Shown here one piece after another: positions 26,582 through 45,184 of a stretch of 64,000 bases of DNA. The notes beneath the pieces are model-generated. The model saw only the letters and a list, made by a program, of their open reading frames with translations, made no database searches and had not been told where the DNA came from. Source of the DNA: Limnohabitans sp. Its GTDB lineage: Bacteria; Pseudomonadota; Gammaproteobacteria; Burkholderiales; Burkholderiaceae_C. How positions within the stretch are numbered: the stretch's first letter is position 1; each line of letters opens with the position of its first letter. Location of the stretch: assembly GCF_023910625.1 (NCBI RefSeq), contig NZ_JAAVVW010000003.1, forward strand, positions 372,001 through 436,000, written 5' to 3'. The position numbers were made by a program, and so were the translations under genes.

Positions 26582-26602
26582 GCGGGACAAAGGGGTCTGG
26601 AA

Positions 26603-26646
26603 TAAAAAAACCCGGGCATGTCACGGGTAGTGAGCATGTCCCGGGT
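26603..26646 (-). terminator. Rho-independent terminator downstream of the Bug-type gene
   Basis: On the minus strand ACCCGGGACATG pairs with CATGCCCGGGT (one bulge) and is followed by seven T. It ends 22 bases before the downstream amidase start, which it separates from the Bug-type gene. Confidence 0.8.
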
Positions 26647-26678
26647 GGCGCGAGCGTCAGCGCAGCGAATTCAGGGTT

Positions 26679-27656: not shown

Positions 27657-27790
27657 GGGGTTTTCCTTGTTGGATCTGTTGAAGGGGAGCATGACCCTCC
27701 CGGTGAAAATCGCAGTTTGACGAAGCAACGGTTTTTAAGGTATCGGAAAATCGCAAAATCAGTGCCGGGTTTTCCCGGGAAAAGTTCGGC

Positions 27791-28861: not shown

Positions 28862-29733
28862 GCTTTGGCCATGCGTTGGTTCAGCCAGCCAGCGGCCAAG
28901 CCAAACCCCGCGATCATCCCCATGCCGCACAGGGCCAGGGCGTCGGGCAGGTGGTCAAACATCCACCAGCCGCCCAGGGCAGAAAAACCAATGGCCGTGT
29001 ACAAGTAAGGCGACAAGACCGAGGCGGGCGCTTTGGAAAACGCCAGCACCGTGAAATACTGACCGTAAGAGCCCGCCAGCGCCACCAACCCCAGCAGGGC
29101 CAGGTCAGGCCAGGACATCTGGTCTGGCCAGAAGAAAGGCACTGCCGCCGACATGAGCGCAAAGCCCAGCGCGCTGGTGCACAGTTGGATGGTGAGCGGT
29201 GAGTCCTGCCGCGCCAGGTAGCCCGTGAGGGTCTGAAAGCCGGTGTAACAGACCACCCCCATCAGCGCCAGGCCGGCGCCCACCGGGTCCACATCACCGC
29301 CTGGGCGCACCACCAACAAGGCACCGGTCATGCCACCTGCCACACACAGCCAGCCTAGCAATGACACGCTTTCTTTCATCACAAACCGGGCCACCACGGT
29401 CACTGCCAGGGGCACCAGGCAATAAATGGCGGTGAACTCGGCCACGGGCATGCGCTGCAAAGCGCCAAAGCCAAACACGCTGCCGCCCACGACCAGCGCG
29501 CCGCGCAGCAGTTGCAGCCGCCACTGCCGTGTGCGCCAGAGTTCGGGCGATTGCCTGCGCCAGATCGTGGCGCTGACCAGCGCGGTTTGCAGGGTGTAAC
29601 GCGTCCAGATGATGATGACGGGCGCCACGCTGAGCATCAGTTTTTTGCTCAGGGTGTCTTGTGTCGACAGGCAGGCCATGGCCGCGACCATGGTCAAGAT
29701 GGCAGCCAACTGGGTTTGGCGGGCGGTGCTCAT
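28858..29733 (-). CDS. EamA/DMT-family permease
   Basis: The 291-residue inner-membrane protein has about ten hydrophobic helices in two EamA repeats (first around SVAPVIIIWTRYTLQTALV, second around GAGLALMGVVCYTGFQTL). These carriers usually export amino acids or metabolites. The start at 29733 overlaps the AraC-type stop as ATGA, and its own stop overlaps the next start, so translation is probably coupled along the operon. Confidence 0.9.
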   Translation of the reverse strand: MSTARQTQLAAILTMVAAMACLSTQDTLSKKLMLSVAPVIIIWTRYTLQTALVSATIWRRQSPELWRTRQWRLQLLRGALVVGGSVFGFGALQRMPVAEFTAIYCLVPLAVTVVARFVMKESVSLLGWLCVAGGMTGALLVVRPGGDVDPVGAGLALMGVVCYTGFQTLTGYLARQDSPLTIQLCTSALGFALMSAAVPFFWPDQMSWPDLALLGLVALAGSYGQYFTVLAFSKAPASVLSPYLYTAIGFSALGGWWMFDHLPDALALCGMGMIAGFGLAAGWLNQRMAKA

Positions 29734-30701
29734 CGCTTGTGCAGCGTGTCCGAGGGCAGCTCGCCAAACAGGTGACGGTAGTCCTGGGCGAACTGGCTCA
29801 GGTGCCAAAAGCCCCAGTGCGAGGCGATGTCCTGGATGGTGTCACCGGGCGCAGCCTGACGCAGGGCGCGGCGCACGCTGTTCAGGCGCAGTGAGCGCAG
29901 GTACTTGATGGGCGTGGTGCCCAGCACGTCCTGAAAGCAGTAATTGAGCTTGCGCCGGCTCGTGCCCAGGCGGCTGCAGACCTCGAGGATGGACAGTGGC
30001 TCGTCGGCGTGGCCCATCATCAGCTCACAAGCACGGTTCACCAGTTTTTTGCGCCGCTCCAAGTTGGGCAGCTCGGAGGTGTCGACCTTCGCAGGCAAAG
30101 CTTCCAGCCATTCCATCAGGATCTCGTCGCGCAACTGGCGCAGGGCCTGTGGGTCTTGCTGGCGCTGCGCCAGGGCGCTGGCCTGGTCCAGCACGGTGAG
30201 CTGCAGGTCGCGCAGGTTTTGTGCCTTGATGTCGGTGGTGGGCAGCACCAACTGCTTTTCGAGCCAATGGGCCAGGGGCTTTTGGTACATGCGCTCCCAC
30301 AGCGGGTTGAGCAGGCTGCGGTTGACGACCACTGCAATCAAGGTGAAGTGGGGCGGGGTGGTCAGGTCCACCTCATCGCCCTTGCCGCACATGATGGCGT
30401 GGGCCGGTACCCGCTGGGCGTTGAAAAACAGGTCCGGCGAGTCCTGCAGCGCCATGGCAAAGCCGTACACGCTCTCATGCAGCCGCCCCCGCTGGCGCAA
30501 GGCGATGTTGGTGTATTCGTGCAACAGCGTCACTTCGGGCAGTTGCACCTGGTGGATGCGCCCCTTGAATTGGCCGGGCGAGAGCTGCTCATACTGCAGC
30601 GCCCAGCCGTGCTGAGCCAGGGCGTGTTGGTCCATGTCCTGGGTGTCCAGTACCTGGACCCAAGGCGAATCGGGGGTGGCAGCTTGATGTGGGGATGACA
30701 A
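29730..30701 (-). CDS. AraC-family transcriptional regulator, EutR-like
   Basis: The 323-residue protein has a C-terminal double helix-turn-helix (SILEVCSRLGTSRRKLNYCFQ and TIQDIASHWGFWHLSQFAQDYRHLFGELP). Its N-terminal half resembles the effector part of EutR-type regulators (GFAMALQDSPDLFFN, PAHAIMCGKGDEVDL). It heads araC-eamA-DUF2817 and is divergent from the amidotransferase-P450 cluster over 293 bases, so it may control both directions. Ligand unknown. Confidence 0.9.
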   Translation of the reverse strand: MSSPHQAATPDSPWVQVLDTQDMDQHALAQHGWALQYEQLSPGQFKGRIHQVQLPEVTLLHEYTNIALRQRGRLHESVYGFAMALQDSPDLFFNAQRVPAHAIMCGKGDEVDLTTPPHFTLIAVVVNRSLLNPLWERMYQKPLAHWLEKQLVLPTTDIKAQNLRDLQLTVLDQASALAQRQQDPQALRQLRDEILMEWLEALPAKVDTSELPNLERRKKLVNRACELMMGHADEPLSILEVCSRLGTSRRKLNYCFQDVLGTTPIKYLRSLRLNSVRRALRQAAPGDTIQDIASHWGFWHLSQFAQDYRHLFGELPSDTLHKR

Positions 30702-30994: not shown

Positions 30995-31723
30995 ATGAAC
31001 CTGCGAATTGCTGTTTTACTGACCAATGACGATACGTCGGCATTTGCCGCGAAATTTCCGAACGATGGGCAAAAAGTGGTGCAGCTGTTACAACCCTTGC
31101 GCCCCCACTGGCAGTTTGAGGTGGTGCCTGTCAAGGATGGGGTACTGCCCGCCAGCCCCGAGGACTATGACGGTTACGTCATCACCGGCAGCCCGGCTTC
31201 GGTCAACGACGAGAGTCTGCCCTGGGTGGGGCAATTACTGGCTTTCATTGGGGCCGTTCATGCGACACGGCAGCCCCTGATCGGCTTGTGTTTTGGCCAC
31301 CAAGCGGTGGCCCGGGCGCTGGGCGGGCAGGTGGCGCGCAACGCGGCTGGCTGGGGCCTTGGCACTGCGCCCACGCACTGGCATGCAACGCGGCCCTGGA
31401 TGTCACCGCTCAAGACCACCACCACCTTGATGGCCGCGCACAACGAGCAGGTCACCCGCATGCCCGAAGGCGCAGTGTGTTTGGGCGGCAGTGACTTTTG
31501 TCCCATCGGCTCGATGCAGATCGGCCAGCACATCTGGACCACCCAGTTCCACCCCGAGATGCCACTGGTGTTCATGCAGGCTTTGCTGGGCTACCTGGCC
31601 GACAAGCTCGATGCCGACACCATGGCCCGTGCCCACGCCAGTCTGGCCAACGCCGCCGATGTGCCGCTGTTTGGGCAATGGATGGTGCAGTTTTTTGATG
31701 ATTGTTTTGAAAGAGCGCAATGA
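30995..31723 (+). CDS. Class I glutamine amidotransferase-like protein
   Basis: The 242-residue protein has the GATase-1 triad: the nucleophile Cys in LIGLCFGHQAVARALGG and His with Glu in TTQFHPEMP. Stand-alone members include PuuD-type gamma-glutamyl hydrolases. It would remove glutamine-derived or gamma-glutamyl groups in the cytosol. As first gene of the cluster with a glutamine-synthetase-like ligase, a role in undoing gamma-glutamylation is attractive but inferred. Its stop overlaps the P450 start (ATGA). Confidence 0.85.
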   Translation: MNLRIAVLLTNDDTSAFAAKFPNDGQKVVQLLQPLRPHWQFEVVPVKDGVLPASPEDYDGYVITGSPASVNDESLPWVGQLLAFIGAVHATRQPLIGLCFGHQAVARALGGQVARNAAGWGLGTAPTHWHATRPWMSPLKTTTTLMAAHNEQVTRMPEGAVCLGGSDFCPIGSMQIGQHIWTTQFHPEMPLVFMQALLGYLADKLDADTMARAHASLANAADVPLFGQWMVQFFDDCFERAQ

Positions 31724-32985
31724 CGGTTTGGAACCCCACCGACGATGGCCACGCCGACCTGTCGGACCACGACAGCTATGTGAACGGCACACCGCACAAC
31801 ACCTTCAAGCGCCTGCGCGACGAAGACCCGATGGCCTGGTGCAACTGGGCCGATGGCAAGGGCTTCTGGTCGGTCACGCGGCATGCCGATATTTTGGAGC
31901 TCAACCGCAACCACCAGCGCTTGTCTTCGGCGCAGGGCATCCGCATGGAAGACCAGTCGCACGAGGAGTACATGGCGCGGCGGACCTTTCAGGAGACCGA
32001 CCCGCCCGAGCACACCCGCACCCGCATGTTGGTGGCCAAGGCCTTTTCCAAGCCCATGATGGCGTTGTACGAAGAGCAGATTCGCGAACTGTGTGTGGGC
32101 ATCCTTGACCAGGCACTGGCGCTGGGCGAGTTTGACGCCACACACCAGATTGCCCGTCAGCTGCCGATGCGCATGCTCGGGCGCATTGCGGGCCTGCCCG
32201 AAGAAGACCTGGATTGGTTGGTGGACAAGGGCGACGCGCTCATGGCCAACACCGACAGTGATTTCACCAGCCATGTGGTCGACAAGATGGACACCGAGGC
32301 CTACCGCTTCATGCCGTTTCGCTCGCCCGCCGGGGCTGACCTGTTCGACTACGCGGCCCAGATGATGGAACGCAAGCGCGCAGCGGGCGACACCAGTGGC
32401 GTGCTGCACCTGATCACCCAACCCGACGCGCAGGGCAATGTGATCAGCGACACCGAATTTCGCAACTTTTTTTGCCTGCTGGTGGCTGCGGGCAACGACA
32501 CCACACGCTATTCGATCGCTGCCGCTTTGCACGCGCTGGCCCACCAGCCCGGACTGATGGCGCAGCTCAAGGCGGTGCAAGGCGAAGTCGCTTGGGAGGG
32601 GGTGTCTGACGAGTTCATCCGCTGGGCCTCGCCCGCCACGCACTTTCGCCGCACCGCGACCGAGGACTTTGAATACCACGGCAAACAGGTCAAGGCGGGC
32701 GACAAGGTGCTGCTTTGGTTCATCTCCGGTAACCGCGACGAGCGGGCCTTTGACCGGCCATTCACCGTCGACCTGAGCCGGGGCGTGAACCGCCATCTGG
32801 CGTTCGGGCAGGGCGGTGCGCATGCCTGTTTGGGCATGTGGCTGGCCCGGCTGGAATTGCGCGTGCTCCTGCAGGAGCTGATTAAGCGGGTCGACCGCAT
32901 CGAGCAAACGGGTGAGCACGCGTTTTTGCGGTCCAACTTTGTCTCGGGCATCAAACGTTTGCCCGTGCGCATGCACCTGATCTGA
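31720..32985 (+). CDS. Cytochrome P450
   Basis: The 421-residue soluble P450 has the I-helix AAGNDTTR (residues 256-263), the ExxR pair Glu298/Arg301 in EFIRWAS, and the heme-ligand loop FGQGGAHACLG with Cys370. It is the bacterial class I type, needing a ferredoxin and a reductase, both encoded 1.5-3 kb downstream. General similarity is to CYP125/142-like and related actinobacterial-proteobacterial P450s; the substrate is not readable. It is second in the cluster, coupled to the amidotransferase. Confidence 0.95.
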   Translation: MTVWNPTDDGHADLSDHDSYVNGTPHNTFKRLRDEDPMAWCNWADGKGFWSVTRHADILELNRNHQRLSSAQGIRMEDQSHEEYMARRTFQETDPPEHTRTRMLVAKAFSKPMMALYEEQIRELCVGILDQALALGEFDATHQIARQLPMRMLGRIAGLPEEDLDWLVDKGDALMANTDSDFTSHVVDKMDTEAYRFMPFRSPAGADLFDYAAQMMERKRAAGDTSGVLHLITQPDAQGNVISDTEFRNFFCLLVAAGNDTTRYSIAAALHALAHQPGLMAQLKAVQGEVAWEGVSDEFIRWASPATHFRRTATEDFEYHGKQVKAGDKVLLWFISGNRDERAFDRPFTVDLSRGVNRHLAFGQGGAHACLGMWLARLELRVLLQELIKRVDRIEQTGEHAFLRSNFVSGIKRLPVRMHLI

Positions 32986-32996
32986 AAGGAACCACC

Positions 32997-34289
32997 ATGT
33001 CAAATGTTCAAGAACGCCTGCGGGTGCTGTATTGCGATCACCTGGCGATTGCGCGAGGCAAATACGTCACGCTCAAGCCCGGCCAGGGCGGTGGTGCCCG
33101 TTTTTGCCGGGGCACCTTTGGCGTGAGCTACGAAAAAGCGCTCAACCCCGTGCCCGGCGCGATGGTCATGGAGGGCCTGCCTGACATGGAGGCTGTCTAC
33201 ACCCCCGAGGACATCCGCCCCGGCTGGCAGCCTTTTACCCATGTGGCGATTGGTGATCTGAAAGCCAACGACGGCACGCCGCTGCCCATGTGCGGGCGCA
33301 GTGCATTGAAGCGCGCCGTGGCCGACTGGCAGGCCATGGGCTTCGACCCGATGGTGGGCATCGAGCTCGAAGCTTTTGCTTTCCAGATCGAGCCCGATGG
33401 TTCGCTCAAGCCCTATGACACACCTGCGGCCCATGTGTATTCCACAGGCCCCTTTTCCGATCCGAGGGGCTTCACCGACACCCTGTGGGAAAAAGCCACG
33501 GCGGCGGGCTTTCGCATCGACAGCATGAACACCGAATACGACGCGCCCCAGTTCGAGTTCACGCTCACCTACGACCGCGCCGTCAAGGCGGTGGATGACA
33601 TTTTCTTGTTCCGCTTGCTCGCCCGTGAAGTCGCTTTCCAGCACGGTATCGTGCTGACCTTCATGCCCAAACCCATCCTCACGGTGGGTGGCAGCGGCGT
33701 GCACATCAACTTCAGCCTGCGTGATGGCCAAGGCCATAACGCGATTTCGGGCGGACACGATGCCAGCCAGTTCAACGCCCTCACACTGGGCTGCACCGCC
33801 GGGCTGATGCACCACCACCAGGCGCTGGCCGGTTTGCTGGCCCCCAGCACCAATTCCTACCAACGTCTGCAACCGGCCAGCCTCTCGGGCTTTTGGCAAA
33901 ACTGGGCGGTCGACCACCGGGGTGTGACGGTGCGCCTGTCGGCCGAATCAGGTCCGGGTGCCCGGATCGAGCACCGCATGGGCGATGCGTCGGCCAATCC
34001 CTACATCCACACGGCTGCGGTGCTGCAAGCAGCGCGCCTGGGTGTGGCCCATGCTTACCCACTGCAACCCATCGAAACGGGTGATTGCCTCGAAAACAAG
34101 GATGCTACCCAGAGCGTGGCAGAAACCTTGGCCGGTGCCTTGGATGCACTGGAAGCCGACTCGGCCCTCACCCAGGCGCTGGGCGAAGGCCTGGTGGCCA
34201 ACCATGTGGGCAACAAGCGCCACGAGATCGAACGCACGGCACGCCTGGAGGGCGATGCCCTGCGCGACCACTACATCCGGTTCATCTGA
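32997..34289 (+). CDS. Glutamine synthetase family protein (gamma-glutamyl-amine ligase type)
   Basis: The 430-residue protein covers the GS catalytic fold: GIELEAFAFQIEPDG with metal-binding Glu, the GGSGVHINFSLRD block with His, LAPSTNSYQR and the arginine block VRLSAESGPGARIEHRMGD. It lacks the tight match to GlnA expected of nitrogen assimilation, and its setting between a P450 and redox partners points to a PuuA/IpuC-like ligase that joins glutamate to an amine. It starts 11 bases after the P450 gene. Confidence 0.88.
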   Translation: MSNVQERLRVLYCDHLAIARGKYVTLKPGQGGGARFCRGTFGVSYEKALNPVPGAMVMEGLPDMEAVYTPEDIRPGWQPFTHVAIGDLKANDGTPLPMCGRSALKRAVADWQAMGFDPMVGIELEAFAFQIEPDGSLKPYDTPAAHVYSTGPFSDPRGFTDTLWEKATAAGFRIDSMNTEYDAPQFEFTLTYDRAVKAVDDIFLFRLLAREVAFQHGIVLTFMPKPILTVGGSGVHINFSLRDGQGHNAISGGHDASQFNALTLGCTAGLMHHHQALAGLLAPSTNSYQRLQPASLSGFWQNWAVDHRGVTVRLSAESGPGARIEHRMGDASANPYIHTAAVLQAARLGVAHAYPLQPIETGDCLENKDATQSVAETLAGALDALEADSALTQALGEGLVANHVGNKRHEIERTARLEGDALRDHYIRFI

Positions 34290-34436
34290 AGGACAGCACG
34301 TGCAAGTTTGGGTCGGCATTGGACAAGGCGCAGAGTCAACGCTCTTTGGCATACCGAACGTGGGCGATCTTGGCTCACCTGGCGACCGTTCGCAGCCATG
34401 GTGTCTGCTCCGCCTATGGGCAAGGGGTAGCTGGCG

Positions 34437-35753
34437 ATGAACGCAACGACCGCATCAAGCGCAGGGTCCAGGCAGGCCTTGGGTCCAGACGCCGAAGTGG
34501 TGGTGGTCGGGGGAGGGCATGCCGGTGCGGCTGTGGTGGCGCAGTTGCGCAGTCAAGGCTTTGCTGGGGAGCTGGTGCTCATTTCTGCCGAAAATGGCTT
34601 GCCTTATCATCGGCCGCCCTTGTCTAAAAAGGCCTTGCTGGAGGGGGCAGACATGGCATCGATGAGCCTGCGGCCCGAGTCCTGGTACGTGACCCACCGG
34701 GTGACCCGCCATGTCTGTGCCACGGTCACCGGCATTGACCGCGCGGCCCGTCGTGTGCACTTGCAATCGGCATCAGCCCCCGAGTCCATGACCTATGACG
34801 CACTCATATTGGCCACCGGCTCTGCGCCTCGAGCATGGACCGATCCGGTCACAGGCGGCGACGCTTTAGGCCTGGCCGATGGCGTTCATGTGCTGCGCGA
34901 TTTCGACGACGCGGTAGCCTTGCGCGCTGCCTTGCTGGCGTGTGGCCATCTGGTCATCGTCGGTGGCGGCTACATCGGTCTGGAGGTGGCAGCCACGGCC
35001 AGGGCCTTGGGCTGTGAGGTGTGCATTGTGGAGCTGGCGCCGCGCATTTTGCAGCGCGTAGCGCCTGAGGCCACCGCCCGCTTGCTGCGTCAGTTGCACC
35101 AATCGCATGGCGTGCAGATTTTCGAAGGTGCCCAGGTCGTGGTATTGCAGCGCGAAGGGAAAAGAATCAGCAGCGTACGCATCCAAACCGCCGAGGGCCC
35201 TCTGCGCGAACTTCAGGCCGACTTGCTGTTGGCCGGTATTGGCGCGGTGCCCCGTGACGCTTTGGCCAAAGCCTGCGGCTTGGAGGTGGGCAATGGCATT
35301 GTGGTCAATGCCCACGGCCAAACCGAGGATCCTGCGATTTGGGCCTTGGGGGATGTGGCCAGACACCGGGACCAATCGATCCGCATCGAGTCGGTGGGCA
35401 ACGCCAATCACCAGGCTGCCTTGGTGGCTGCGGCATTGATGGCCCGACCTGAACCACTGCCTTTAGTGCCCTGGTTCTGGTCCGACCAATACGGTGGGCG
35501 TTTGCAAATTGCCGGCTTGTGGCAACCCGCTGACCGTTGGGTGGAGCGCCAAGAGGGTGCGCAGGGGCGCAGCATTTGGTCATACCAAGGGCCTCGGTTG
35601 GTTGCGGTCGATGCGTGGCAAGCCCCTGGGGCCTATGTCTTGGGCAAGAAATGGCTGGAAACCGGCCAATATCCTCCTTCCGAATGGTTGGCCAATCAGG
35701 ACCACAACTTAAAGGACTGGGTGCCTCAAGCACTCAGCGGTGTAGCGTCATGA
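34437..35753 (+). CDS. FAD-dependent ferredoxin reductase
   Basis: The 438-residue protein is of the putidaredoxin-reductase/rubredoxin-reductase type: FAD motif VVVVGGGHAGAAVVAQLRSQGF, ATGSAPR, NAD motif VIVGGGYIGLEVAATARALG, and WALGDVAR for the flavin ribityl chain. It would take electrons from NAD(P)H to the ferredoxin encoded next, and so to the P450. A 147-base gap without a gene separates it from the ligase gene; I see no clear promoter in it. Confidence 0.92.
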   Translation: MNATTASSAGSRQALGPDAEVVVVGGGHAGAAVVAQLRSQGFAGELVLISAENGLPYHRPPLSKKALLEGADMASMSLRPESWYVTHRVTRHVCATVTGIDRAARRVHLQSASAPESMTYDALILATGSAPRAWTDPVTGGDALGLADGVHVLRDFDDAVALRAALLACGHLVIVGGGYIGLEVAATARALGCEVCIVELAPRILQRVAPEATARLLRQLHQSHGVQIFEGAQVVVLQREGKRISSVRIQTAEGPLRELQADLLLAGIGAVPRDALAKACGLEVGNGIVVNAHGQTEDPAIWALGDVARHRDQSIRIESVGNANHQAALVAAALMARPEPLPLVPWFWSDQYGGRLQIAGLWQPADRWVERQEGAQGRSIWSYQGPRLVAVDAWQAPGAYVLGKKWLETGQYPPSEWLANQDHNLKDWVPQALSGVAS

Positions 35754-35834
35754 TGGTGATTGAGCGCTACAAGCCATTTTTTCTTATGGGCTCAAGCAAG
35801 CCCCATGTTTTTAAACTTTGAAAGAGAGCACACC

Positions 35835-36149
35835 ATGCCTAAAGTGCACTGGATTTTGCCCAATGGTGAACGCGTCAGCGACGATGTCAACGAAAACAGC
35901 AACCTGATGGATGCGGCCCAGATGAACGGCATTGCCGGCATCGATGGCGAATGCGGCGGTTGCTTGTCTTGTGCCACTTGCCATGTGGTGGTGGATGACG
36001 CTTGGCTGGCCCTGTGCCCCCCCATGGGCGAGGTGGAAAACGCCATGCTGGACATCGTCAGCTCCCCGCGCCAAAGTGGCAGCCGCTTGAGCTGCCAATT
36101 GAGCGCATCGACCGTCCTCGATGGCATCGTGCTCCATGTTCCTCAATGA
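35835..36149 (+). CDS. [2Fe-2S] ferredoxin, adrenodoxin/putidaredoxin type
   Basis: The 104-residue protein has the cluster ligands in GECGGCLSCATCHV and the fourth Cys in SCQLS near residue 90, the spacing of P450-partner ferredoxins. The start at 35835 (MPKVHWILPNGER) has AGAGAG upstream; an open frame to 35760 is without support. It closes the P450 electron chain with the reductase. Its stop overlaps the permease start. Confidence 0.93.
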   Translation: MPKVHWILPNGERVSDDVNENSNLMDAAQMNGIAGIDGECGGCLSCATCHVVVDDAWLALCPPMGEVENAMLDIVSSPRQSGSRLSCQLSASTVLDGIVLHVPQ

Positions 36150-37633
36150 GCTCAGTCATGTCTGATCAACAACTCAAACGCAACCAACTCGGTGTAGCTT
36201 CCATTGTTTTTTTTGTGGTCGCAGCTGCAGCCCCGCTTTTGGGGATGACCGGTGCTGCGCCCATGGCCATTGTGTTGGGCACTGGGGCCGGTGTGCCCGG
36301 GGCGTATTTGCTGGTGGGGTTGACCTTGGTGTTGTTCAGCGTGGGGTACTGCGCGATGAGTCGGCGCGTGACCAATTCGGGGGCATTTTTTGCCTACATT
36401 GGCAGCGGCTTGGGTCTGCCGGTCGGCTTGGGGGCGGCCCTCGTGTCGGTCTTGGCCTATGTGAGCATTCAATTGGCCATTTACGGATTTTTTGGGGGGC
36501 TCTTGGCTTTGCAATGGGGCTTGCTGCCTTGGTGGGGTTGGTCTGGTTTGGCCTGGGGCTTGGTGACGGTTTTGTCCATGCGCCAAGTTGAGGTGGGCGC
36601 CCGCTTGTTGGGCGTCTTGCTGCTGTTAGAGATGGTCTGTCTGCTCGTCACCGCTGTGGCCATCTTGCTGCACGGTGGCCCTGAGGGCTTGTCTTGGGGC
36701 GCGGCTTTTGCGCCTGAAAATGTATTGGTGGGGGGCTTGTCGGGCTCCGCGGGGGTGTCTCTGGCTTTTGCCCTGGCTTCGTTCATTGGGTTTGAAGCCA
36801 CGGCGATTTATGGCGAGGAATCGATTGACCCCAAAACCACGGTGCCTCGCGCGACTTACTGGGCGGTTGCCTTGATCACCGTGTTTTTCGCGCTGACCTC
36901 GTTTGCCATCGTCACCGGCCTGGGTGCATCCCATGTGGTGGATGAGGTGGTCAAACGCTCCACGGTGGACGGTCAGGCTTTGGCCGACCCTGCTGCAGTG
37001 TTGTTTTCCTTGGCCCGTGAATTCGTCGGCCCTGGGATGGCCAGTGCCATGGCGATTTTGGTGATCTCCAGCTTGTTTGCAGGATTGCTGGCTTTTCAAA
37101 ATTCGGCGGCGCGCTACCTGTTTGCATTGTCTCGCGGCGGTGCATTGCCTGCTGCGCTGGCCAGGGTCAATCGCCAAGGTGCGCCGGTCCATGCGTCGGC
37201 TTGGGTCAGCGTGCTCACGGCTTTGGTCATGGCGGCCTTTGCAGTGTCTGATTTGGATCCCATTGTTCAGCTGTTCGCTTGGTGCAGTGGTGTGGCGGTG
37301 GTCGCCATTTTGATGATCGAGGTCTTGGTTTCGGTGGGCGTGTGGGCCTATTTCAGGCGCTCGCTTGAAAAGGTGGGGGCCTGGTCCAGCACCATTGCAC
37401 CTTTGGCATCGGCCGTGCTGTTGAGTCTGGGTTTGTATTTGCTGTTGTCGCGTTTTGGCTTGCTGACCGGCTTGGTGATGGCAGGGGTGGACCCTGCCGC
37501 CACAGCATGGGGTCTGAGCCCCCTGGGCTGGCTGCTGGCCTTGTTGCCCGCTATGGTCGGGGTTGTGGGCTGGGCCATGGCGCATTTGCAGCCATTGGGC
37601 AGCAATCAATTGCTCAAAGACATCCTTTCCTGA
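36146..37633 (+). CDS. APC-superfamily amino acid/amine permease
   Basis: The 495-residue inner-membrane protein has about 12-14 helices, the APC N-terminal pattern GVASIVFFVVAAAAPLLGMTG and an IGFEATAIYGEES block typical of amino acid/polyamine/organocation carriers. The ATG at 36146 overlaps the ferredoxin stop; a second ATG follows at 36158. It probably imports the cluster's nitrogenous substrate. Confidence 0.92.
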   Translation: MSSVMSDQQLKRNQLGVASIVFFVVAAAAPLLGMTGAAPMAIVLGTGAGVPGAYLLVGLTLVLFSVGYCAMSRRVTNSGAFFAYIGSGLGLPVGLGAALVSVLAYVSIQLAIYGFFGGLLALQWGLLPWWGWSGLAWGLVTVLSMRQVEVGARLLGVLLLLEMVCLLVTAVAILLHGGPEGLSWGAAFAPENVLVGGLSGSAGVSLAFALASFIGFEATAIYGEESIDPKTTVPRATYWAVALITVFFALTSFAIVTGLGASHVVDEVVKRSTVDGQALADPAAVLFSLAREFVGPGMASAMAILVISSLFAGLLAFQNSAARYLFALSRGGALPAALARVNRQGAPVHASAWVSVLTALVMAAFAVSDLDPIVQLFAWCSGVAVVAILMIEVLVSVGVWAYFRRSLEKVGAWSSTIAPLASAVLLSLGLYLLLSRFGLLTGLVMAGVDPAATAWGLSPLGWLLALLPAMVGVVGWAMAHLQPLGSNQLLKDILS

Positions 37634-37649
37634 AGCATCAAGGTCATCC

Positions 37650-39134
37650 ATGCAAAAAGAAAAAATCGACGCGCTGCGACACCAAACTATTGCTGATCAG
37701 GGCTTGTTGATCGACGGCCAGTGGGCTGCTGCGGCATCGGGGCAGACGATGCCGGTGGTCTCGCCCATCGACGGGCAGACCTTGTGCAGCATTGCTGCCG
37801 CTGGGGCTCAGGATGTCGACCGCGCCGTGCAGGCGGCGCGCCGCACGTTTGAGCAGGGGGTGTGGTCGCGCATGGCGCCAGCCGAGCGTAAGAAAATTTT
37901 GCACCGCATTGCCGACTGCATCGAAGCCCACCACGCCGAGCTGGCGGTGCTGGGTGTGCGCGACAACGGCACCGAAATTGCCATGGCCTGGAAGGCCGAG
38001 CCGGGCAGCGCGGCGGGCACCTTCCGCTACTACGCCGAGTGTGTGGACAAGATCAACGGCGAGATCGCGCCCACGCCCGAGGGCACCTTGGGGCTGATCC
38101 ACAAGGAGGCGGTCGGCGTGGTTGCGGCCATCGTGCCGTGGAACTTTCCACTCATGATCGGTGCCTGGAAGATCGCGCCCGCGCTGGCCGCAGGCAACTC
38201 GGTGGTGCTCAAACCTTCCGAAGATGCGTCGCTCTCTTTGCTGCGCTTGGCGCAGCTGTGTCTGGACGCAGGCTTGCCCCCGGGCGTGCTCAACGTGGTC
38301 ACCGGCACAGGCGCAGAGGCGGGCGAGGCGCTGGCGCGGCACATGGATGTGGACATCCTGACTTTCACGGGCTCCGGCCCAGTGGGGCGCTTGCTGCTCA
38401 AAGCTTCGGCAGAGTCCAACCTCAAGCGGGTGTATTTGGAGCTGGGCGGCAAGTCCCCCAACATTGTTTTTGACGATGCAGTCGATCTGGCGCAGGCTGC
38501 CAAGGTGTCGGCCATGGGCATCTTCCGCAACAGTGGGCAGGTGTGTGTGGCGGGCTCGCGCCTTTTGGTGCAGCGCTCGGTGCACGACGAGTTTGTGGAG
38601 CGCCTGCAAAACATCGCCGCCAGTTTGCGCGTGGGGGACCCGCTGGATGTGACGACCGACGTCGGCGCGGTCAGCAGCGCCCGCCAGTTGGCCCGCAACC
38701 AGAGCATGCTGGCGCGTGCGCTGGCGCAGGGCGCGCGTCTGCGCACCGGCGGTCAGGTGATCGCGCCCGTGCCCGGTGGCCAATACATGAGCCCCGCCGT
38801 GCTCGATGGCGTTCAGCCCGAGATGGAGATTGCCCGTCAGGAAGTCTTTGGCCCGGTGCTGGCCGTCATGCCTTTTGACGATGAGTCCCATGCTGTGCGC
38901 TTGGCCAACGGCACCGAATATGGCTTGGCGGCAGGGGTGTGGACCGGCAGCCTCTCGCGCGCCCACCGCATGGTGCGCGCCATCAAGGCCGGGTTGGTGC
39001 ATGTCAACACCTATGGCGGCCCGGACATCACCGTGCCGCTGGGCGGAGTGCGGCAGTCGGGCAACGGGCACGACAAATCGATGCACGCGCTGGACAAATA
39101 CCTGGACCTCAAAACCGCTTGGATACAGCTTTAA
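37650..39134 (+). CDS. NAD-dependent aldehyde dehydrogenase, PuuC/amino-aldehyde type
   Basis: The 494-residue enzyme has catalytic Cys299 in GQVCVAGS and Glu264 in LELGGKSPN, the cofactor block FTGSGPVGRLLL, and the C-terminal PLGGVRQSGNGHD. Sequence style is that of gamma-glutamyl-aminobutyraldehyde/aminoaldehyde dehydrogenases. It would oxidise the amino aldehyde released upstream to an omega-amino acid. It lies 16 bases after the permease and 19 before the aminotransferase. Confidence 0.93.
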   Translation: MQKEKIDALRHQTIADQGLLIDGQWAAAASGQTMPVVSPIDGQTLCSIAAAGAQDVDRAVQAARRTFEQGVWSRMAPAERKKILHRIADCIEAHHAELAVLGVRDNGTEIAMAWKAEPGSAAGTFRYYAECVDKINGEIAPTPEGTLGLIHKEAVGVVAAIVPWNFPLMIGAWKIAPALAAGNSVVLKPSEDASLSLLRLAQLCLDAGLPPGVLNVVTGTGAEAGEALARHMDVDILTFTGSGPVGRLLLKASAESNLKRVYLELGGKSPNIVFDDAVDLAQAAKVSAMGIFRNSGQVCVAGSRLLVQRSVHDEFVERLQNIAASLRVGDPLDVTTDVGAVSSARQLARNQSMLARALAQGARLRTGGQVIAPVPGGQYMSPAVLDGVQPEMEIARQEVFGPVLAVMPFDDESHAVRLANGTEYGLAAGVWTGSLSRAHRMVRAIKAGLVHVNTYGGPDITVPLGGVRQSGNGHDKSMHALDKYLDLKTAWIQL

Positions 39135-39153
39135 AAATCACACAAGGAAAACG

Positions 39154-40518
39154 ATGAACACCGACCAACTCAAGGCCGACAACGCCCAATACCTGTGGCA
39201 CCCCATGGCCCACCCGGGGGCGATGAAAAAATCCACGCCCGACATCATTGCCAAAGGCGAGGGCTGTTGGATCTGGGACGTGGACGGCCACAAGATGCTG
39301 GACGGCGTGGGAGGCCTATGGGCCTGCAACCTGGGCCACAGCAACAAGCCGGTGCGCGACGCAATCGTGGCGCAGATGGACGAGCTGCCGTTTTACAACG
39401 TGTTTCGCGGCACCACCCATGTGCGGGCGATCGAGTTGTCCAAACGGCTGGTCCAATTGATGCAGCCCGAGGGTGTGGCCACGGTGATGTTTTCTACCGG
39501 CGGCTCGGACGCGGTCGAGGGCGCGCTCAAAGTGGCGCGTCAGTACTGGAAGCTCAAGGGCCAGGCCGACCGCTACAAGTTCATCAGCCTGCGCCAGGGC
39601 TACCACGGCGTGCACTTTGGCGGCATGAGCGTGAACGGCAACACCAACTTCCGCCGCGCTTACGAGCCACTGCTGCCTGGATGCTTCCACGTCGACACGC
39701 CCTGGCTTTATCACAACCCCTACACCGATGACCCGATCCGTTTGGGCGAAATTTGTGCCGAAATGCTCGAGCGCGAAATCGTGTTCCAGGGGCCGGATAC
39801 GGTGGCGGCCTTCATTGCGGAGCCGGTACAGGGCGCGGGTGGCGTGATCGTGCCGCCGCCCAACTACTGGCCGCTGGTGCGCCAGATTTGTGACAAGTAC
39901 GGTGTCCTCTTGATCGCCGACGAAGTGGTGACCGGCTTTGGCCGCAGTGGTGAAATGTTTGGCACGCGCCTGTGGGGCGTGAATGCCGACATGTGGTGCC
40001 TGGCCAAGGGCATTTCCTCGGGTTACATCCCGCTGGGGGCCACCGCCATCAACCACCGCATCGCAGACGTGTTTGACGCCGACACCACGGGTACCGCTTC
40101 GGTCTCGCATGGCTACACCTACAGTGCCCACCCGATCGCGGCTGCGGCGGCGCTGGCCACGCTCGACCAGATCGCGGCGCTGGACATTCCGGGCAATGCT
40201 GCGCGCTTGGGCGCGCACCTGCAGACGCGCTTGCGCAAGCTGGTGGACACCTGCAGCTTTGTGGGTGATGTGCGTGGCGTGGGCCTGATGTTGGGCATCG
40301 AGATGGTGAGCGACAAAGCCAAACGCATTCCCATGCCCCGCACCAGCGACATTCCGGCGCGGGTGGCCAAAGCCGCTTACAAGGCGGGTCTGATGGTGCG
40401 CATTTCGGGCCCCAACCTGATTTTGTCGCCCCCGCTGATCATCACCCGCGAGCAGGTGGACTTGATGTGCGACGTGCTCGAAGGCGCATTTGCCGCTGTG
40501 CAGGAGGGTCGCGCATGA
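39154..40518 (+). CDS. Class III aminotransferase (omega-amino acid:pyruvate type)
   Basis: The 454-residue PLP enzyme has the PLP Lys285 in CLAKGISSGYIPLGA, the DEVVTGFGRSGEMFG block with the pyridine-nitrogen Asp, and STGGSDAVEGALKVAR for phosphate binding. It belongs with beta-alanine/GABA/putrescine:pyruvate transaminases. It fits directly after an aldehyde dehydrogenase as the step turning an omega-amino acid into a semialdehyde. AAGGAAA precedes the start; the stop overlaps the next start. Confidence 0.93.
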   Translation: MNTDQLKADNAQYLWHPMAHPGAMKKSTPDIIAKGEGCWIWDVDGHKMLDGVGGLWACNLGHSNKPVRDAIVAQMDELPFYNVFRGTTHVRAIELSKRLVQLMQPEGVATVMFSTGGSDAVEGALKVARQYWKLKGQADRYKFISLRQGYHGVHFGGMSVNGNTNFRRAYEPLLPGCFHVDTPWLYHNPYTDDPIRLGEICAEMLEREIVFQGPDTVAAFIAEPVQGAGGVIVPPPNYWPLVRQICDKYGVLLIADEVVTGFGRSGEMFGTRLWGVNADMWCLAKGISSGYIPLGATAINHRIADVFDADTTGTASVSHGYTYSAHPIAAAAALATLDQIAALDIPGNAARLGAHLQTRLRKLVDTCSFVGDVRGVGLMLGIEMVSDKAKRIPMPRTSDIPARVAKAAYKAGLMVRISGPNLILSPPLIITREQVDLMCDVLEGAFAAVQEGRA

Positions 40519-41774
40519 AGAGCCCCGTCATCCTGATCGTCGGCACGGTCGACACCAAGAGCGACGAGATCGGCTTCATGCGCGAGCAGGTGCAGGCCGC
40601 TGGCGGGCAGGCCCTGATCATGGACGTGGGCGTGCTGGCCAAAGGGCAGGTGGTCCCGCATTTTGCCAACACCGAGGTCGCGCAGGCGGCGGGCGTGACG
40701 CTGCAGCAAGTCATGGACAGCGGCGACGAAAACAGCGCCATGGCCCTGATGGCCCAAGGCGCATCAGCCCTGGCAGTTCAACTGCAGCGCGAGGGCCGCA
40801 TCAACGGCCTGCTGGTGCTGGGCGGCACCATGGGCACCGATCTGGCGCTTGACGTGGCCAGCAGCTTGCCGCTGGGCGTGCCCAAGGTGGTGCTGTCCAC
40901 GGTGGCGTTTTCGCCCTTGTTGCCACCCGAGCGCATGCCGCCTGATTTGATGATGGTGCTGTGGGCCGGGGGCCTGTATGGCCTCAATAGCCTGTGCCAG
41001 TCGGCATTGGCGCAAGCCGCTGGTGCGGTGGTGGGGGCTTGCCTTGTGGCGCGAGCGCCGCGTTTTACGCGGCCCGTGGTGGGCATGACCTCGCTGGGGT
41101 CGAGCTGCCTGAAGTACATGGTTCAACTCAAGCCCGAGCTGGACAAGCGGGGGTTTGACCTGGCGGTGTTCCACACCACAGGCATGGGGGGCAGGGCGTT
41201 TGAATCGCTGGCCGCGCAAGGCCAGTTCGCCTGCGTGATGGACTTCAGTCTGCAGGAAATGGTCAACCAGATGGGCGGCTCAGTGGTCAGTGCTGGCCCG
41301 GACCGCCTGATGGGGGCGGGTCGCCAGGGTGTGCCGATGATTGTGGCCCCCGGAGCCACCGATCTGGTGGACTACCCGGCTTGGGGGCAGATGCCCGCGC
41401 GCTTTGCAGGGCGTCCCTCACACGACCACAACCGATTGATCGCCTCGGTGGGCGTTGACGCCGAGATGCGCCGTGAATTTGCCCGCGAATTGGCCCATCG
41501 CGTGCGTCAGGCCCAAGGCCCGGTGCACCTGGTGCTGCCCCTGCAAGGCATTCAAGAGTGGGACCGGGCCGGTGCACCACTGCACGATCCAGAAGGTCTG
41601 GCGGCGATGATGGACGAAATGGCGCAATGCGATTGGGGCTTGGCACAGGTCTCGCGCATCGACGCCCACATCAACGATGCGGCGTTTGTGCAGCAGGTGC
41701 TGGTGGTGTTTGACGATTGGCTGGCGCGAGGTTTGGTGTTGCCCGCTGTGGGCAAGAAAGCGGCCCATGTCTGA
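40515..41774 (+). CDS. Tm-1-like/UPF0261 family protein
   Basis: The 419-residue protein matches UPF0261, the Tm-1 resistance-protein family: VGTVDTKSDEIGFMREQV at the N-terminus, LGGTMGTDLALDVASSLPLG with an ATP-site-like Gly-rich loop, and FHTTGMGGRAFESLAAQG. Its biochemical role is not established; it is often found with catabolic genes. The ATG overlaps the aminotransferase stop (ATGA), and its end overlaps the HAD gene by eight bases, so it belongs to the same operon. Confidence 0.88.
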   Translation: MKSPVILIVGTVDTKSDEIGFMREQVQAAGGQALIMDVGVLAKGQVVPHFANTEVAQAAGVTLQQVMDSGDENSAMALMAQGASALAVQLQREGRINGLLVLGGTMGTDLALDVASSLPLGVPKVVLSTVAFSPLLPPERMPPDLMMVLWAGGLYGLNSLCQSALAQAAGAVVGACLVARAPRFTRPVVGMTSLGSSCLKYMVQLKPELDKRGFDLAVFHTTGMGGRAFESLAAQGQFACVMDFSLQEMVNQMGGSVVSAGPDRLMGAGRQGVPMIVAPGATDLVDYPAWGQMPARFAGRPSHDHNRLIASVGVDAEMRREFARELAHRVRQAQGPVHLVLPLQGIQEWDRAGAPLHDPEGLAAMMDEMAQCDWGLAQVSRIDAHINDAAFVQQVLVVFDDWLARGLVLPAVGKKAAHV

Positions 41775-42435
41775 TGCCGTGAAACCCGAAGACAAGGCCT
41801 TGATTTTGGACTTTGGTGGCGTCATCAGCCGCACATTGTTTGAAACCCATGCCCTGAGCGAAACCGCTTTGGGCCTGGCTGCCGGCACGCTCACCTGGCA
41901 AGGCCCGTTTGCCCCCGAAACCGATGCGTTGTGGCAAGCCATGCAGGCCGATCAGATCAGTGAACGCGATTACTGGATGCAGCGCACCCGCGAGGTCGGG
42001 CGTTTGCTGGGTGAAGACTGGACCGAGATGCAAACCTTTGTGCAGCGTGCGCGAGGGGCTGATGTGCAGGCTGTGATCCGGCCTGAGGCGGTGGCGGCCA
42101 TCCAGCAGGCCAAGGCGCTGGGCTACAAGCTGGGCATTTTGTCGAACGAACTTGATCTTTTTTATGGCGCGGATTTTCGCGAGCGTTTGCCCTTGCTCCA
42201 GCAGTTTGATGTGATCGTGGACGCCACCTACACCGCGATCCTAAAACCGGACCCTCGCGCTTACGACGATTGCTTGCAGGCTTTGGGCGTACGGCCTGAG
42301 CTGGCGGTATTTGTGGATGACCAAAAGCGCAATGTGGATGGCGCCCGCAGGTGTGGCTTGCAGGTCGTGCAGCTCGATGTCTGCCGTCCAGGTGCGGGTT
42401 TTTCCGAGGCCATGCGATTGCTGATGTCTCTTTGA
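41767..42435 (+). CDS. HAD-superfamily hydrolase
   Basis: The 222-residue protein has the HAD motifs: ILDFGGVI (motif I, where the second Asp of DxD is replaced by Gly-Val, as in several dehalogenase/epoxide-hydrolase-N-like members), LGILSNEL (motif II), a Lys in ILKPDPRAY (motif III) and FVDDQKRNVDGA (motif IV). It is probably a small-molecule phosphatase. Last gene of the amine cluster; 164 bases without a gene follow. Confidence 0.87.
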   Translation: MSDAVKPEDKALILDFGGVISRTLFETHALSETALGLAAGTLTWQGPFAPETDALWQAMQADQISERDYWMQRTREVGRLLGEDWTEMQTFVQRARGADVQAVIRPEAVAAIQQAKALGYKLGILSNELDLFYGADFRERLPLLQQFDVIVDATYTAILKPDPRAYDDCLQALGVRPELAVFVDDQKRNVDGARRCGLQVVQLDVCRPGAGFSEAMRLLMSL

Positions 42436-42599
42436 TCCGGCGTCAGCGGTGGTGGTTCTGGCTGTTGCAGCTGTCACGCACGAGAGCGGGGTCGGTGCCG
42501 GGCCTGGCGAAACCCCTGTCTTTAGATCGTCCGGCCCCGGATGTTTGGCATGCAAAGACTTTATGATGCGGTGACCCATCCCAAATGAGGAGACGAAAC

Positions 42600-43595
42600 A
42601 TGTATGAGCGCATTCAATGGGGTCAACGCCGCAACTTCCTGAAGGTCCTCTGTGCAGCGGCCAGTCCGGTTCCATATTGGTCCCAGGCTCAAAGCCCATG
42701 GCCCTCCAAACCGGTGACCATGGTCGTTCCTTTTCCGGCCGGCGGTGGCACCGATGCCTTTGCCCGGCCCATCTCGGCCCAGTTTGCCAAGCTGACTGGT
42801 AAGCAACTTATCATTGACAACCGGGGCGGCGCGGGCGGCACTTTAGGTGCTGCCGTGGCCGCCAAGTCGACGCCCGATGGCTACAACCTGTTCATGGGGG
42901 CGGTTCACCACACGATTGCGCCCAGCATGTACCCCCGCCTCGACTATGACCTTGAACGCGACTTGGTGCCCTTGATCCTGGTGGCCAATGTGCCCCAGGT
43001 ACTGGTGGTCAACCCCCGGAAAGTCCAGTCGGCCGACTTCAAGGCTTTCTTGCAAATGCTCAAGAAAAACCCCGGACGCCTGAATTACGGCTCTGCGGGC
43101 GGGGGCACTTCACATCACTTGGCTGGAGAGTTGTTCAAGCTGCAGACCCAAACCTTCATCACCCACATCCCCTACCGGGGTGCTGGCCCGGCCCTGCAAG
43201 ACCTGATTGCCGGCAACGTGGACATGATGTTCGATGGTCTGGGTTCCTCGGCAGCGCACATCAAAGGGGGGCGTATCAAGGCCCTGATGGTTTCAGGTGC
43301 CAGACGAAATGCGGCTTTTCCTGATGTGCCGTGTTCTGCCGAGCTTGGTTTGTCCGATTACACCGTCTCAACCTGGTATGGCGTTTGGGCTCCCAAAGGG
43401 ACACCTGCCGACGCCCAGGCCCGAGCCATCGAAGAGATTCGCCGAGCTTGCCAGACCGACGATGCCAAAGCCGTCTGGGCCAATCAGGGTGCTGAATTCC
43501 CCAACCTCACCACCACCCAGTTTGAAGCTTTCATCAAGAAAGAACTGGCCAAGTGGTCGCAGGTGGTCAGGGTTTCCGGAGCCAAGCTCGATTGA
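42600..43595 (+). CDS. Bug/TctC-family binding protein with Tat-like leader
   Basis: The 331-residue protein has the TctC core (KPVTMVVPFPAGGGTDAFARP, DNRGGAGGTLGAAVAAKSTPDGYN). The leader reads QRRNFLKVLCAAASPVPYWSQAQ, a twin-arginine-like pattern, unusual beside the Sec leaders of the other two Bug proteins here. GAGGAGA precedes the start. It lies 44 bases upstream of malonyl-CoA synthetase in the same direction, which suggests a dicarboxylate ligand. Confidence 0.9.
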   Translation: MYERIQWGQRRNFLKVLCAAASPVPYWSQAQSPWPSKPVTMVVPFPAGGGTDAFARPISAQFAKLTGKQLIIDNRGGAGGTLGAAVAAKSTPDGYNLFMGAVHHTIAPSMYPRLDYDLERDLVPLILVANVPQVLVVNPRKVQSADFKAFLQMLKKNPGRLNYGSAGGGTSHHLAGELFKLQTQTFITHIPYRGAGPALQDLIAGNVDMMFDGLGSSAAHIKGGRIKALMVSGARRNAAFPDVPCSAELGLSDYTVSTWYGVWAPKGTPADAQARAIEEIRRACQTDDAKAVWANQGAEFPNLTTTQFEAFIKKELAKWSQVVRVSGAKLD

Positions 43596-43639
43596 TCGGT
43601 ACCCGCCAGCAGGCCCTTTCTTCATTTTTGATTCGCATC

Positions 43640-45184
43640 ATGACCCAGGACAACCTGTTTTCGGCCCTCCGGGCTGCTTTCCCTGCCGACTTGAATTCGG
43701 TGGCGGTTCAAACCGATGAGGGCCAGGAGTACAGCTGGCAAGACCTAGACCGCGCCACGGCCATGATGGCCAATTTACTGGCTTCACTCGATTTGCCTGA
43801 GGGCAGTCGGGTGGCGGTACAGGTCGAAAAATCCGTTGAGGCCTTGATGTTGTACTTGGCCACTTTGCGTGCCGGCCATGTTTTTTTGCCCTTGAACACC
43901 GCATACCAAAGCGCTGAGGTCGAGTATTTCATTCGCAATGCAGAGCCCGCTGTGGTGGTTTGCAGTGGCGTCCATTTTGGCTGGGTGAGCAAGATTGCTT
44001 TCAAGGCAGGTACGACGCATGTGTTGACCCTCAATGACGATCGCACTGGCAGTTTGCTCGACCGCGCGAGACATCACAGCGACCAGCACGCCATTGTCAA
44101 GCGCCGTTCAGATGACCTGGCGGCTATTTTGTACACCAGTGGAACCACCGGTCGCAGCAAGGGTGCGATGCTGACTCACGGCAACATGCTCAGCAACGCA
44201 CGGACACTCAAGGACTATTGGGGCTGGAAAAAGGGGGATGTGCTCATCCACGCTTTGCCAATTTTCCATGTGCACGGACTGTTTGTTGCCATCCACGGTG
44301 CCTTGATCAATGGCAGCAAGATGATCTGGATGGCCAAGTTCGAACCTAAGCGGGCCATCGCCTGCATGAAGCAGGCCACCGTGTTCATGGGCGTGCCCAC
44401 TCTGTATGTGCGAATGTTGAGCGAACCCGGTTTGGACAAAGCCGCTGTTCGAAACATGCGCTTGTTCATCGCGGGCTCTGCCCCCTTGTTGATTGAAACC
44501 TTTGGCCAATGGCAAGAGCGCACGGGGCACACGATTTTGGAGCGTTATGGCATGAGTGAAACCGCCATGCTGACCTCCAACCCCTATGCTGCTGACCCGC
44601 GTTTTGCACACCAGACCGAGCGGCGCGGTGGTACGGTTGGTTTTCCCTTGCCCGGAGTCTCCTTGCGTGTTCGTGGTGACGATGGGCAAGACTTGCCAGT
44701 GGGCGAGGTCGGTGGCATTCAGGTCCGTGGCCCGAATGTGTTCAAGGGTTACTGGCGCATGCCCGAAAAAACCGCAGAAGAGTTCACGGTCGATGGTTTT
44801 TTCAAGACTGGCGACGTGGGCAAGATCGATGAGCGCGGTTACGTGACCATCGTGGGTCGCAGCAAAGACCTGATCATCAGTGGCGGGTACAACGTCTATC
44901 CCGCCGAGATTGAGGGTGAGATCAACGAGATGCCGGGGGTCGCCGAAAGTGCAGTGGTGGGGGTTGCTCATCCGGACTTTGGTGAAGTGGGGGTGGCAGT
45001 CGTGGTTGCCTGCCCCGCATCCCAGCTCAGGCCTGACGACATCCTGGCTGAGCTCAAGGCCAAGCTCGCCAATTTCAAGATCCCCAAGCGCTGCTTTGTG
45101 GTGCCTGAGCTGCCGCGCAACACCATGGGGAAAGTCCAAAAAAACCTGTTGCGCGAGCAATACAAGGGTCTTTTTTCAGTCTGA
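43640..45184 (+). CDS. matB: Malonyl-CoA synthetase
   Basis: The 514-residue ANL-superfamily ligase has the P-loop YTSGTTGRSKGAMLTHGN, PIFHVHGLFVA, ERYGMSE, the FKTGDVGKIDERGYVTIVGR hinge and the Lys in MGKVQKNLLRE near the end. The PIFHVHGL and RYGMSETAM blocks are those of MatB enzymes, which make malonyl-CoA from malonate, CoA and ATP. The start at 43640 is the family start (MTQDNLF). Malonate as ligand of the Bug protein just upstream is inference. Confidence 0.9.
   Translation: MTQDNLFSALRAAFPADLNSVAVQTDEGQEYSWQDLDRATAMMANLLASLDLPEGSRVAVQVEKSVEALMLYLATLRAGHVFLPLNTAYQSAEVEYFIRNAEPAVVVCSGVHFGWVSKIAFKAGTTHVLTLNDDRTGSLLDRARHHSDQHAIVKRRSDDLAAILYTSGTTGRSKGAMLTHGNMLSNARTLKDYWGWKKGDVLIHALPIFHVHGLFVAIHGALINGSKMIWMAKFEPKRAIACMKQATVFMGVPTLYVRMLSEPGLDKAAVRNMRLFIAGSAPLLIETFGQWQERTGHTILERYGMSETAMLTSNPYAADPRFAHQTERRGGTVGFPLPGVSLRVRGDDGQDLPVGEVGGIQVRGPNVFKGYWRMPEKTAEEFTVDGFFKTGDVGKIDERGYVTIVGRSKDLIISGGYNVYPAEIEGEINEMPGVAESAVVGVAHPDFGEVGVAVVVACPASQLRPDDILAELKAKLANFKIPKRCFVVPELPRNTMGKVQKNLLREQYKGLFSV

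Follow-up and report, generated by a model that had tools for sequence, protein, structure and literature searches.

A predicted glutamylation-dependent cytochrome P450 pathway for tyramine or a related arylethylamine in freshwater Limnohabitans

The ten-gene locus

The window analysed here is a stretch of 64,000 nucleotides from the 3.17 Mb genome of a Limnohabitans sp., and the subject of this report is a cytochrome P450 gene cluster on its forward strand, at positions 30995-42435, which probably serves the breakdown of an arylethylamine. The genes encode, in order, a class I glutamine amidotransferase (GATase)-like protein, the P450, a glutamine synthetase (GS)-like ligase, a ferredoxin reductase, a ferredoxin, a permease, an aldehyde dehydrogenase (ALDH), a class III aminotransferase, a Tm-1-like protein and a HAD-family hydrolase (Table 1). 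All ten open reading frames are intact and their families, as given in an initial annotation of the window, were confirmed by Pfam and NCBIfam searches; they form a real and complete gene set. Overlaps of 4 bp join the GATase-like and P450 genes, the ferredoxin and permease genes (ATGA) and the aminotransferase and Tm-1-like genes. The Tm-1-like and HAD genes also overlap, the P450 and GS-like genes are 11 bp apart, and the widest gap, between the GS-like and reductase genes, is 147 bp, a spacing that is operon-like throughout. The start of the ferredoxin is better set at the ATG at 35835 (MPKVHWILPNG...) and that of the permease at the ATG at 36146.

Table 1. Genes of the cluster and the adjacent regulator, with predicted roles and supporting matches
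Gene product and predicted role	Position	Strand	Match
AraC-family regulator, divergent, candidate operon regulator	29730..30701	-	HTH_18
Class I GATase-like, proposed gamma-glutamyl-amide hydrolase (deglutamylation)	30995..31723	+	PF00117, 54.6 bits
Cytochrome P450, proposed ring hydroxylase of gamma-glutamyl amide	31720..32985	+	PF00067
GS-like gamma-glutamyl-amide ligase, GoaS type (predicted)	32997..34289	+	PF00120, 237 bits
FAD-dependent ferredoxin reductase, strain-variable	34437..35753	+	Pyr_redox_2 + Reductase_C
[2Fe-2S] ferredoxin, adrenodoxin/ISC type	35835..36149	+	PF00111
APC-family permease, likely amine uptake, strain-variable	36146..37633	+	PF00324
Aldehyde dehydrogenase, proposed arylacetaldehyde dehydrogenase	37650..39134	+	PF00171
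Class III amine:pyruvate-type aminotransferase, proposed arylethylamine to aldehyde	39154..40518	+	PF00202
Tm-1-like / UPF0261 protein	40515..41774	+	PF06792 + PF23189; PRK02399.1-4 over cut-off
HAD-family hydrolase	41770..42435	+	PF00702

A single scan of genome contigs yielded 80 loci encoding the GS-like protein, referred to below by their numbers where needed. The P450 was found in 22 of the 60 members of Limnohabitans sampled. The order GATase, P450, GS-like ligase, ferredoxin, ALDH, aminotransferase, Tm-1-like protein and HAD hydrolase is held in nearly all loci of Limnohabitans and its close kin, which argues that the arrangement is not due to chance. The initial annotation had described a P450 cluster with its own reductase and permease; both are present in the window, but among Limnohabitans-type loci just five have the reductase (L029, L036, L042, L046 and L078) and three the permease (L032, L036 and L042), and the two are therefore outside the conserved gene set. 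A Limnohabitans-type cluster that is 94% identical was also found on a contig labelled as an Akkermansia muciniphila metagenome-assembled genome (L018), where the label most probably results from misbinning or misnaming.

Active-site features and closest families

The heme-cysteine motif (FGQGGAHACLG) and ExxR of the P450 are conserved across all aligned homologues, as are the cysteine in GLCFGHQ and the His-Pro-Glu of the GATase-like protein. The metal- and glutamate/ATP-binding residues of the GS-like ligase (G-x-E-x-E, E-x-D-x2-Q-x-E, G-x-H and R-x-E-x-R) are retained across its clade. The Glu flap is missing, with NSYKRLVPGYEAP of the Bacillus subtilis-type glutamine synthetase (4lnf) aligning to NSYQRLQPASLSG in an alignment that covers the protein beyond its N-terminal 85 residues, and the protein scores below the cut-off of every glutamine synthetase equivalog in NCBIfam. 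Loss of this flap has been reported for organic-amide synthetases (GoaS), which do not use ammonium (PMC11335346). Judged from its residues, the protein fits the GoaS type, having the GS fold with its catalytic residues and a lost ammonium-handling Glu flap.

The P450 is the best-conserved protein of the cluster, with 59-98% identity from Limnohabitans to the Roseobacter group and Novosphingobium. Its best relatives in the PDB are a CYP125-type ancestral reconstruction, CYP268, CYP126 and CYP124, all too distant to fix its substrate. In the tree it lies in a clade of its own tied to GS-like partners, and not firmly among the terpene or steroid hydroxylases, the placement that the initial annotation had named as speaking against amine degradation. 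The ferredoxin, with the cysteine pattern C-x5-C-x2-C-...-C, is of the [2Fe-2S] adrenodoxin/ISC-like type. The best NCBIfam model for the ALDH is PuuC (552 bits, under the cut-off of 850), and its best PDB relatives are KauB (6b4r) and 5iuu, which we take to be an indole-acetaldehyde dehydrogenase, with 4lih also among them. The aminotransferase exceeds the cut-off of PRK07481 (708 bits against 575) and is closest to the omega-transaminases 5lh9 and 6s54. The Tm-1-like protein is related to 9mpy and to tomato Tm-1, and no assigned activity for UPF0261 was found in the literature searched.

Linkage of related loci to aromatic ring cleavage

Outside Limnohabitans, the core of GATase, P450, GS-like ligase and ferredoxin recurs in the Roseobacter group, often together with the aminotransferase, ALDH, Tm-1-like and tripartite transporter genes, and the GS-like/P450 pair is also found in Novosphingobium, Dongia and Streptomyces. 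In the Roseobacter-type loci the ALDH orthologue is 60-69% identical to that of the window; the aminotransferase orthologue (47-51%) is present in L014, L057, L058, L059, L074, L076 and L077, the Tm-1-like gene accompanies the module, and a relative of the HAD gene is found at 63% identity in L077. When the 30 non-Limnohabitans loci with long flanks were counted by hand, an extradiol ring-cleavage dioxygenase was found near the core in 14. Complete or near-complete sets of the homoprotocatechuate meta-cleavage (hpa) genes are present in L057, L067, L068, L073, L076, L081, L089 and L091. In Shimia thalassica (L057), for example, the core, aminotransferase, ALDH, Tm-1-like and transporter genes adjoin HpaF, HpaE, HpaD, HpaG, HpaH and HpaI. 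Family checks placed HpaD of L091 over TIGR02295 and HpaH of L089 over TIGR02312, and the HpaI-like protein of L067, at 351 bits, fell short of its cut-off of 369. An aromatic-amino-acid decarboxylase-like gene is also present in nine loci (L055, L060, L063, L066, L071, L077, L081, L089 and L091); the closest solved relative of the L060 protein is DOPA decarboxylase (387 bits), followed by tyrosine and aromatic-amino-acid decarboxylases, with glutamate decarboxylase scoring far lower. In both the P450 and the GS-like trees, the Limnohabitans proteins form a clade between two groups linked to ring cleavage.

In a second type of locus, represented by Novosphingobium (L015), Dongia (L055), Streptomyces (L096) and the loci L054, L082 and L093, the P450/GS pair is accompanied by genes for an HpaE-like ALDH, a FAH-family protein, an MppR-like protein of the acetoacetate decarboxylase family and a divergent LigB-type dioxygenase, which scores about 125 bits to HpaD_Fe against a cut-off of 316. 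Neither a GATase nor a matching aminotransferase was present in the stretch examined, and loci of this type may cleave the ring with the glutamate still attached.

Among 199 sampled Rhodobacteraceae genomes, HpaD, of either type over cut-off, was present in 39 of the 40 that carry the P450 and in 37 of the 159 that do not (Fisher test, p = 5e-19, uncorrected for shared ancestry). Of 19 cases in which the locus has no hpaD, TIGR02295 detected HpaD in another part of the genome or record in 16, and TIGR02298 did so in a further two. The window's genome itself encodes HpaD_Fe (G000:C3:2383781, 449 bits) and HpaH (G000:C3:2385151, 436 bits), both over cut-off, on the same contig as the operon and about 2 Mb from it. 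HpaH matches were found in all 36 good Limnohabitans genomes, whether or not the P450 is present. The homoprotocatechuate meta-cleavage operon (G000:C3:2383781-2385963, L121; also L122) is core to Limnohabitans. HpaB (PF03241), which usually serves as the 4-hydroxyphenylacetate 3-hydroxylase, is absent from the window's genome and was found in 1 of the 60 Limnohabitans members.

Comparison with known amine pathways

The ipu pathway attacks isopropylamine through the joint action of a GS-like gamma-glutamyl-amide ligase, a class I P450 and a GATase-like hydrolase (PMC6776027), while in the aniline and 1-naphthylamine pathways GoaS glutamylation has a GATase-like partner and the aromatic glutamyl amide is oxygenated before ring cleavage (PMC11335346). 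Homology and analogy with these systems support the initial annotation's proposal that the GS-like ligase, P450 and GATase act on an amine, and the pathway is classed here as a variant of known glutamylate-then-oxygenate amine pathways.

By gene content, the operon can be likened to the ipu genes of Pseudomonas KIE171 and to both ipu clusters of Arthrobacter aurescens TC1, with which it shares the ligase, the P450 with its ferredoxin and reductase, the GATase-like deglutamylase, the permease and the ALDH (PMC6776027). Ligase, P450, ferredoxin, reductase and GATase lie in one cluster here, the reductase being strain-variable. The operon could thus act on a small alkylamine such as isopropylamine or sec-butylamine, which would be glutamylated and hydroxylated by the P450 on its alkyl group, the GATase then freeing an amino alcohol for the aminotransferase and ALDH to finish; the amine:pyruvate type of the aminotransferase is in keeping with this. 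We nevertheless consider an alkylamine unlikely: orthologues of the P450/GS pair lie with genes for catechol meta-cleavage and for aromatic-amino-acid decarboxylase-like proteins and co-occur with HpaD, which alkylamines do not need. The ipu route leads from alkylamine to amino alcohol and has no reported tie to ring cleavage.

The atdA1-A5 and npaA1-A5 systems share with the operon GoaS glutamylation, a GATase-like partner and oxygenation of the glutamyl amide before ring cleavage; they differ in using a Rieske dioxygenase instead of a P450, in having an arylamine as substrate, and in that their GAT-like enzyme is thought to reverse glutamylation (PMC11335346). With the Puu putrescine pathway, the operon has in common a GS-like ligase, a PuuC-like ALDH, a GATase-type hydrolase and a class III aminotransferase. 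A PuuB-type FAD-dependent gamma-glutamylputrescine oxidase was not found among the ten genes or the scanned neighbours, and a P450 system is present instead.

Mycobacterial pip and mor clusters, which likewise combine a P450, a ferredoxin, a reductase and a GS-like gene, led the initial annotation to propose a cyclic secondary amine (pyrrolidine, piperidine or morpholine) as substrate and an omega-amino acid such as 4-aminobutyrate (GABA) as the product to be transaminated. These clusters have their own ferredoxin type and genomic context: the mor ferredoxin is of the [3Fe-4S] type, in contrast to the [2Fe-2S] protein of the operon, and relatives of the window's P450 and GS-like ligase lie among homoprotocatechuate ring-cleavage and decarboxylase-like genes. 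A cyclic amine with GABA was rejected as the leading model on this ring-cleavage context, and we regard such a substrate as highly improbable; the context and the co-occurrence with HpaD point to an arylethylamine, leaving a GABA-type product unsupported.

The proposed route from tyramine to homoprotocatechuate

Gene context makes it somewhat more probable than not that this freshwater Limnohabitans operon encodes a glutamylate-hydroxylate-deglutamylate pathway that feeds a primary arylethylamine, most likely tyramine, into the hpa pathway. An arylethylamine is indicated because relatives of the P450/GS pair adjoin hpa and decarboxylase-like genes and because the P450 co-occurs with HpaD. The substrate, all reactions and the order of steps are inferred from this context. 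The amine would be imported by the permease or another transporter, and the GS-like ligase would use ATP to couple tyramine to the gamma-carboxyl of glutamate, giving gamma-glutamyl-tyramine. With electrons from the [2Fe-2S] ferredoxin and a reductase, the P450 would then hydroxylate the ring to gamma-glutamyl-dopamine, from which the GATase-like protein would release dopamine and glutamate. The aminotransferase could convert dopamine to 3,4-dihydroxyphenylacetaldehyde and the ALDH could oxidize this to homoprotocatechuate, whose ring would be opened by the hpa operon elsewhere on the chromosome, yielding central metabolites. It counts in favour of this scheme that the operon, with its GATase, aminotransferase and ALDH, encodes exactly what is required to turn glutamyl-dopamine into homoprotocatechuate. 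The hpa pathway is classically fed by 4-hydroxyphenylacetate through HpaB and HpaC.

Since the gene context narrows the substrate down no further than to an arylethylamine converted in the end to homoprotocatechuate, the pathway might instead use phenethylamine, 3-methoxytyramine or another O-methylated phenethylamine, with the P450 demethylating, hydroxylating twice or attacking the side chain. Another aromatic substrate or reaction of this kind seems rather unlikely to us: tyramine is simplest, as the decarboxylase of tyrosine/DOPA type beside the module in relatives would make it from tyrosine, and it is one hydroxylation short of a catechol, where phenethylamine would need more. The order of steps could also differ, in that the ring of gamma-glutamyl-dopamine would be cleaved to gamma-glutamyl-4-aminobutyraldehyde, oxidized by the ALDH to gamma-glutamyl-GABA, deglutamylated by the GATase to GABA and transaminated to succinate semialdehyde. 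The closeness of the ALDH to PuuC and 4lih, and the second locus type with its divergent dioxygenase set and no GATase or matching aminotransferase, are in line with such late deglutamylation. The ring-cleavage operon of Limnohabitans is, on the other hand, canonical and also present in genomes that have no P450, so free homoprotocatechuate should be its substrate, and we hold this order to be quite improbable in the window's operon.

Several observations weigh against the tyramine pathway. No hpa or decarboxylase gene lies inside the operon, the linkage to hpa being seen only in relatives, and some Roseobacter loci have no hpa genes nearby. The window's GS-like ligase and P450 are only 50-74% identical to most of the relatives linked to ring cleavage, which leaves room for a change of substrate. 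Both the P450 and HpaD track phylogeny, and the Fisher p value thus overstates their independence; within Limnohabitans the co-occurrence is uninformative, because HpaD_Fe is matched in every one of the 36 good genomes, of which 16 have the P450. HpaB is rare in both Rhodobacteraceae groups (6 of 40 with the P450, 15 of 159 without), and mutual exclusion of HpaB and the P450 in this family was dropped as support on these figures. The ALDH scores highest to PuuC and KauB, enzymes of aminoaldehydes. Finally, a function was sought for the Tm-1-like and HAD proteins and none was found, and neither has a step in the proposed pathway.

Nothing relevant on gamma-glutamyl-tyramine or gamma-glutamyl-dopamine in such a pathway, and no description of the whole pathway, was found in the literature searched, which left out most subscription papers, and earlier publication is still possible. 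We suggest, tentatively, a broader picture in which a widespread and so far undescribed pathway of aquatic bacteria converts tyrosine or tyramine into homoprotocatechuate, transient gamma-glutamylation lets a P450 carry out the ring hydroxylation for which HpaBC is usually responsible, and a second variant in Novosphingobium, Dongia and Streptomyces cleaves the glutamylated ring. Were the proposed pathway correct, a P450/GS-like pair found in about one-fifth of the sampled Rhodobacteraceae genomes and more than one-third of the sampled Limnohabitans, both abundant aquatic bacteria, would gain a substrate, and aromatic amines would have a way into the homoprotocatechuate pathway that does not depend on HpaBC. 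The pathway would also extend the glutamylate-then-oxygenate strategy beyond anilines and alkylamines to biogenic arylethylamines, and would make the annotation 'glutamine synthetase family protein' beside a P450 testable by growth and enzyme assay.

Neighbouring genes

Limnohabitans loci are usually flanked by the divergent AraC-family gene, which is conserved at 83-94% identity in most of those that extend far enough upstream. Identity with FeaR, the tyramine regulator, was considered and rejected, as the best NCBIfam model is EutR (176 bits, below the cut-off of 319). Beside this gene, an amidase (PRK06170, over cut-off), a TctC-type receptor, a DUF2817 protein and a DMT transporter are encoded on the reverse strand (25121-29808), a block retained in part of the Limnohabitans loci. 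Downstream of the operon, on the forward strand at 42585-45184, lie genes for a TctC-type receptor and a malonyl-CoA synthase (PRK07514, 863 bits), which follow it in most Limnohabitans loci and possibly share its regulon.

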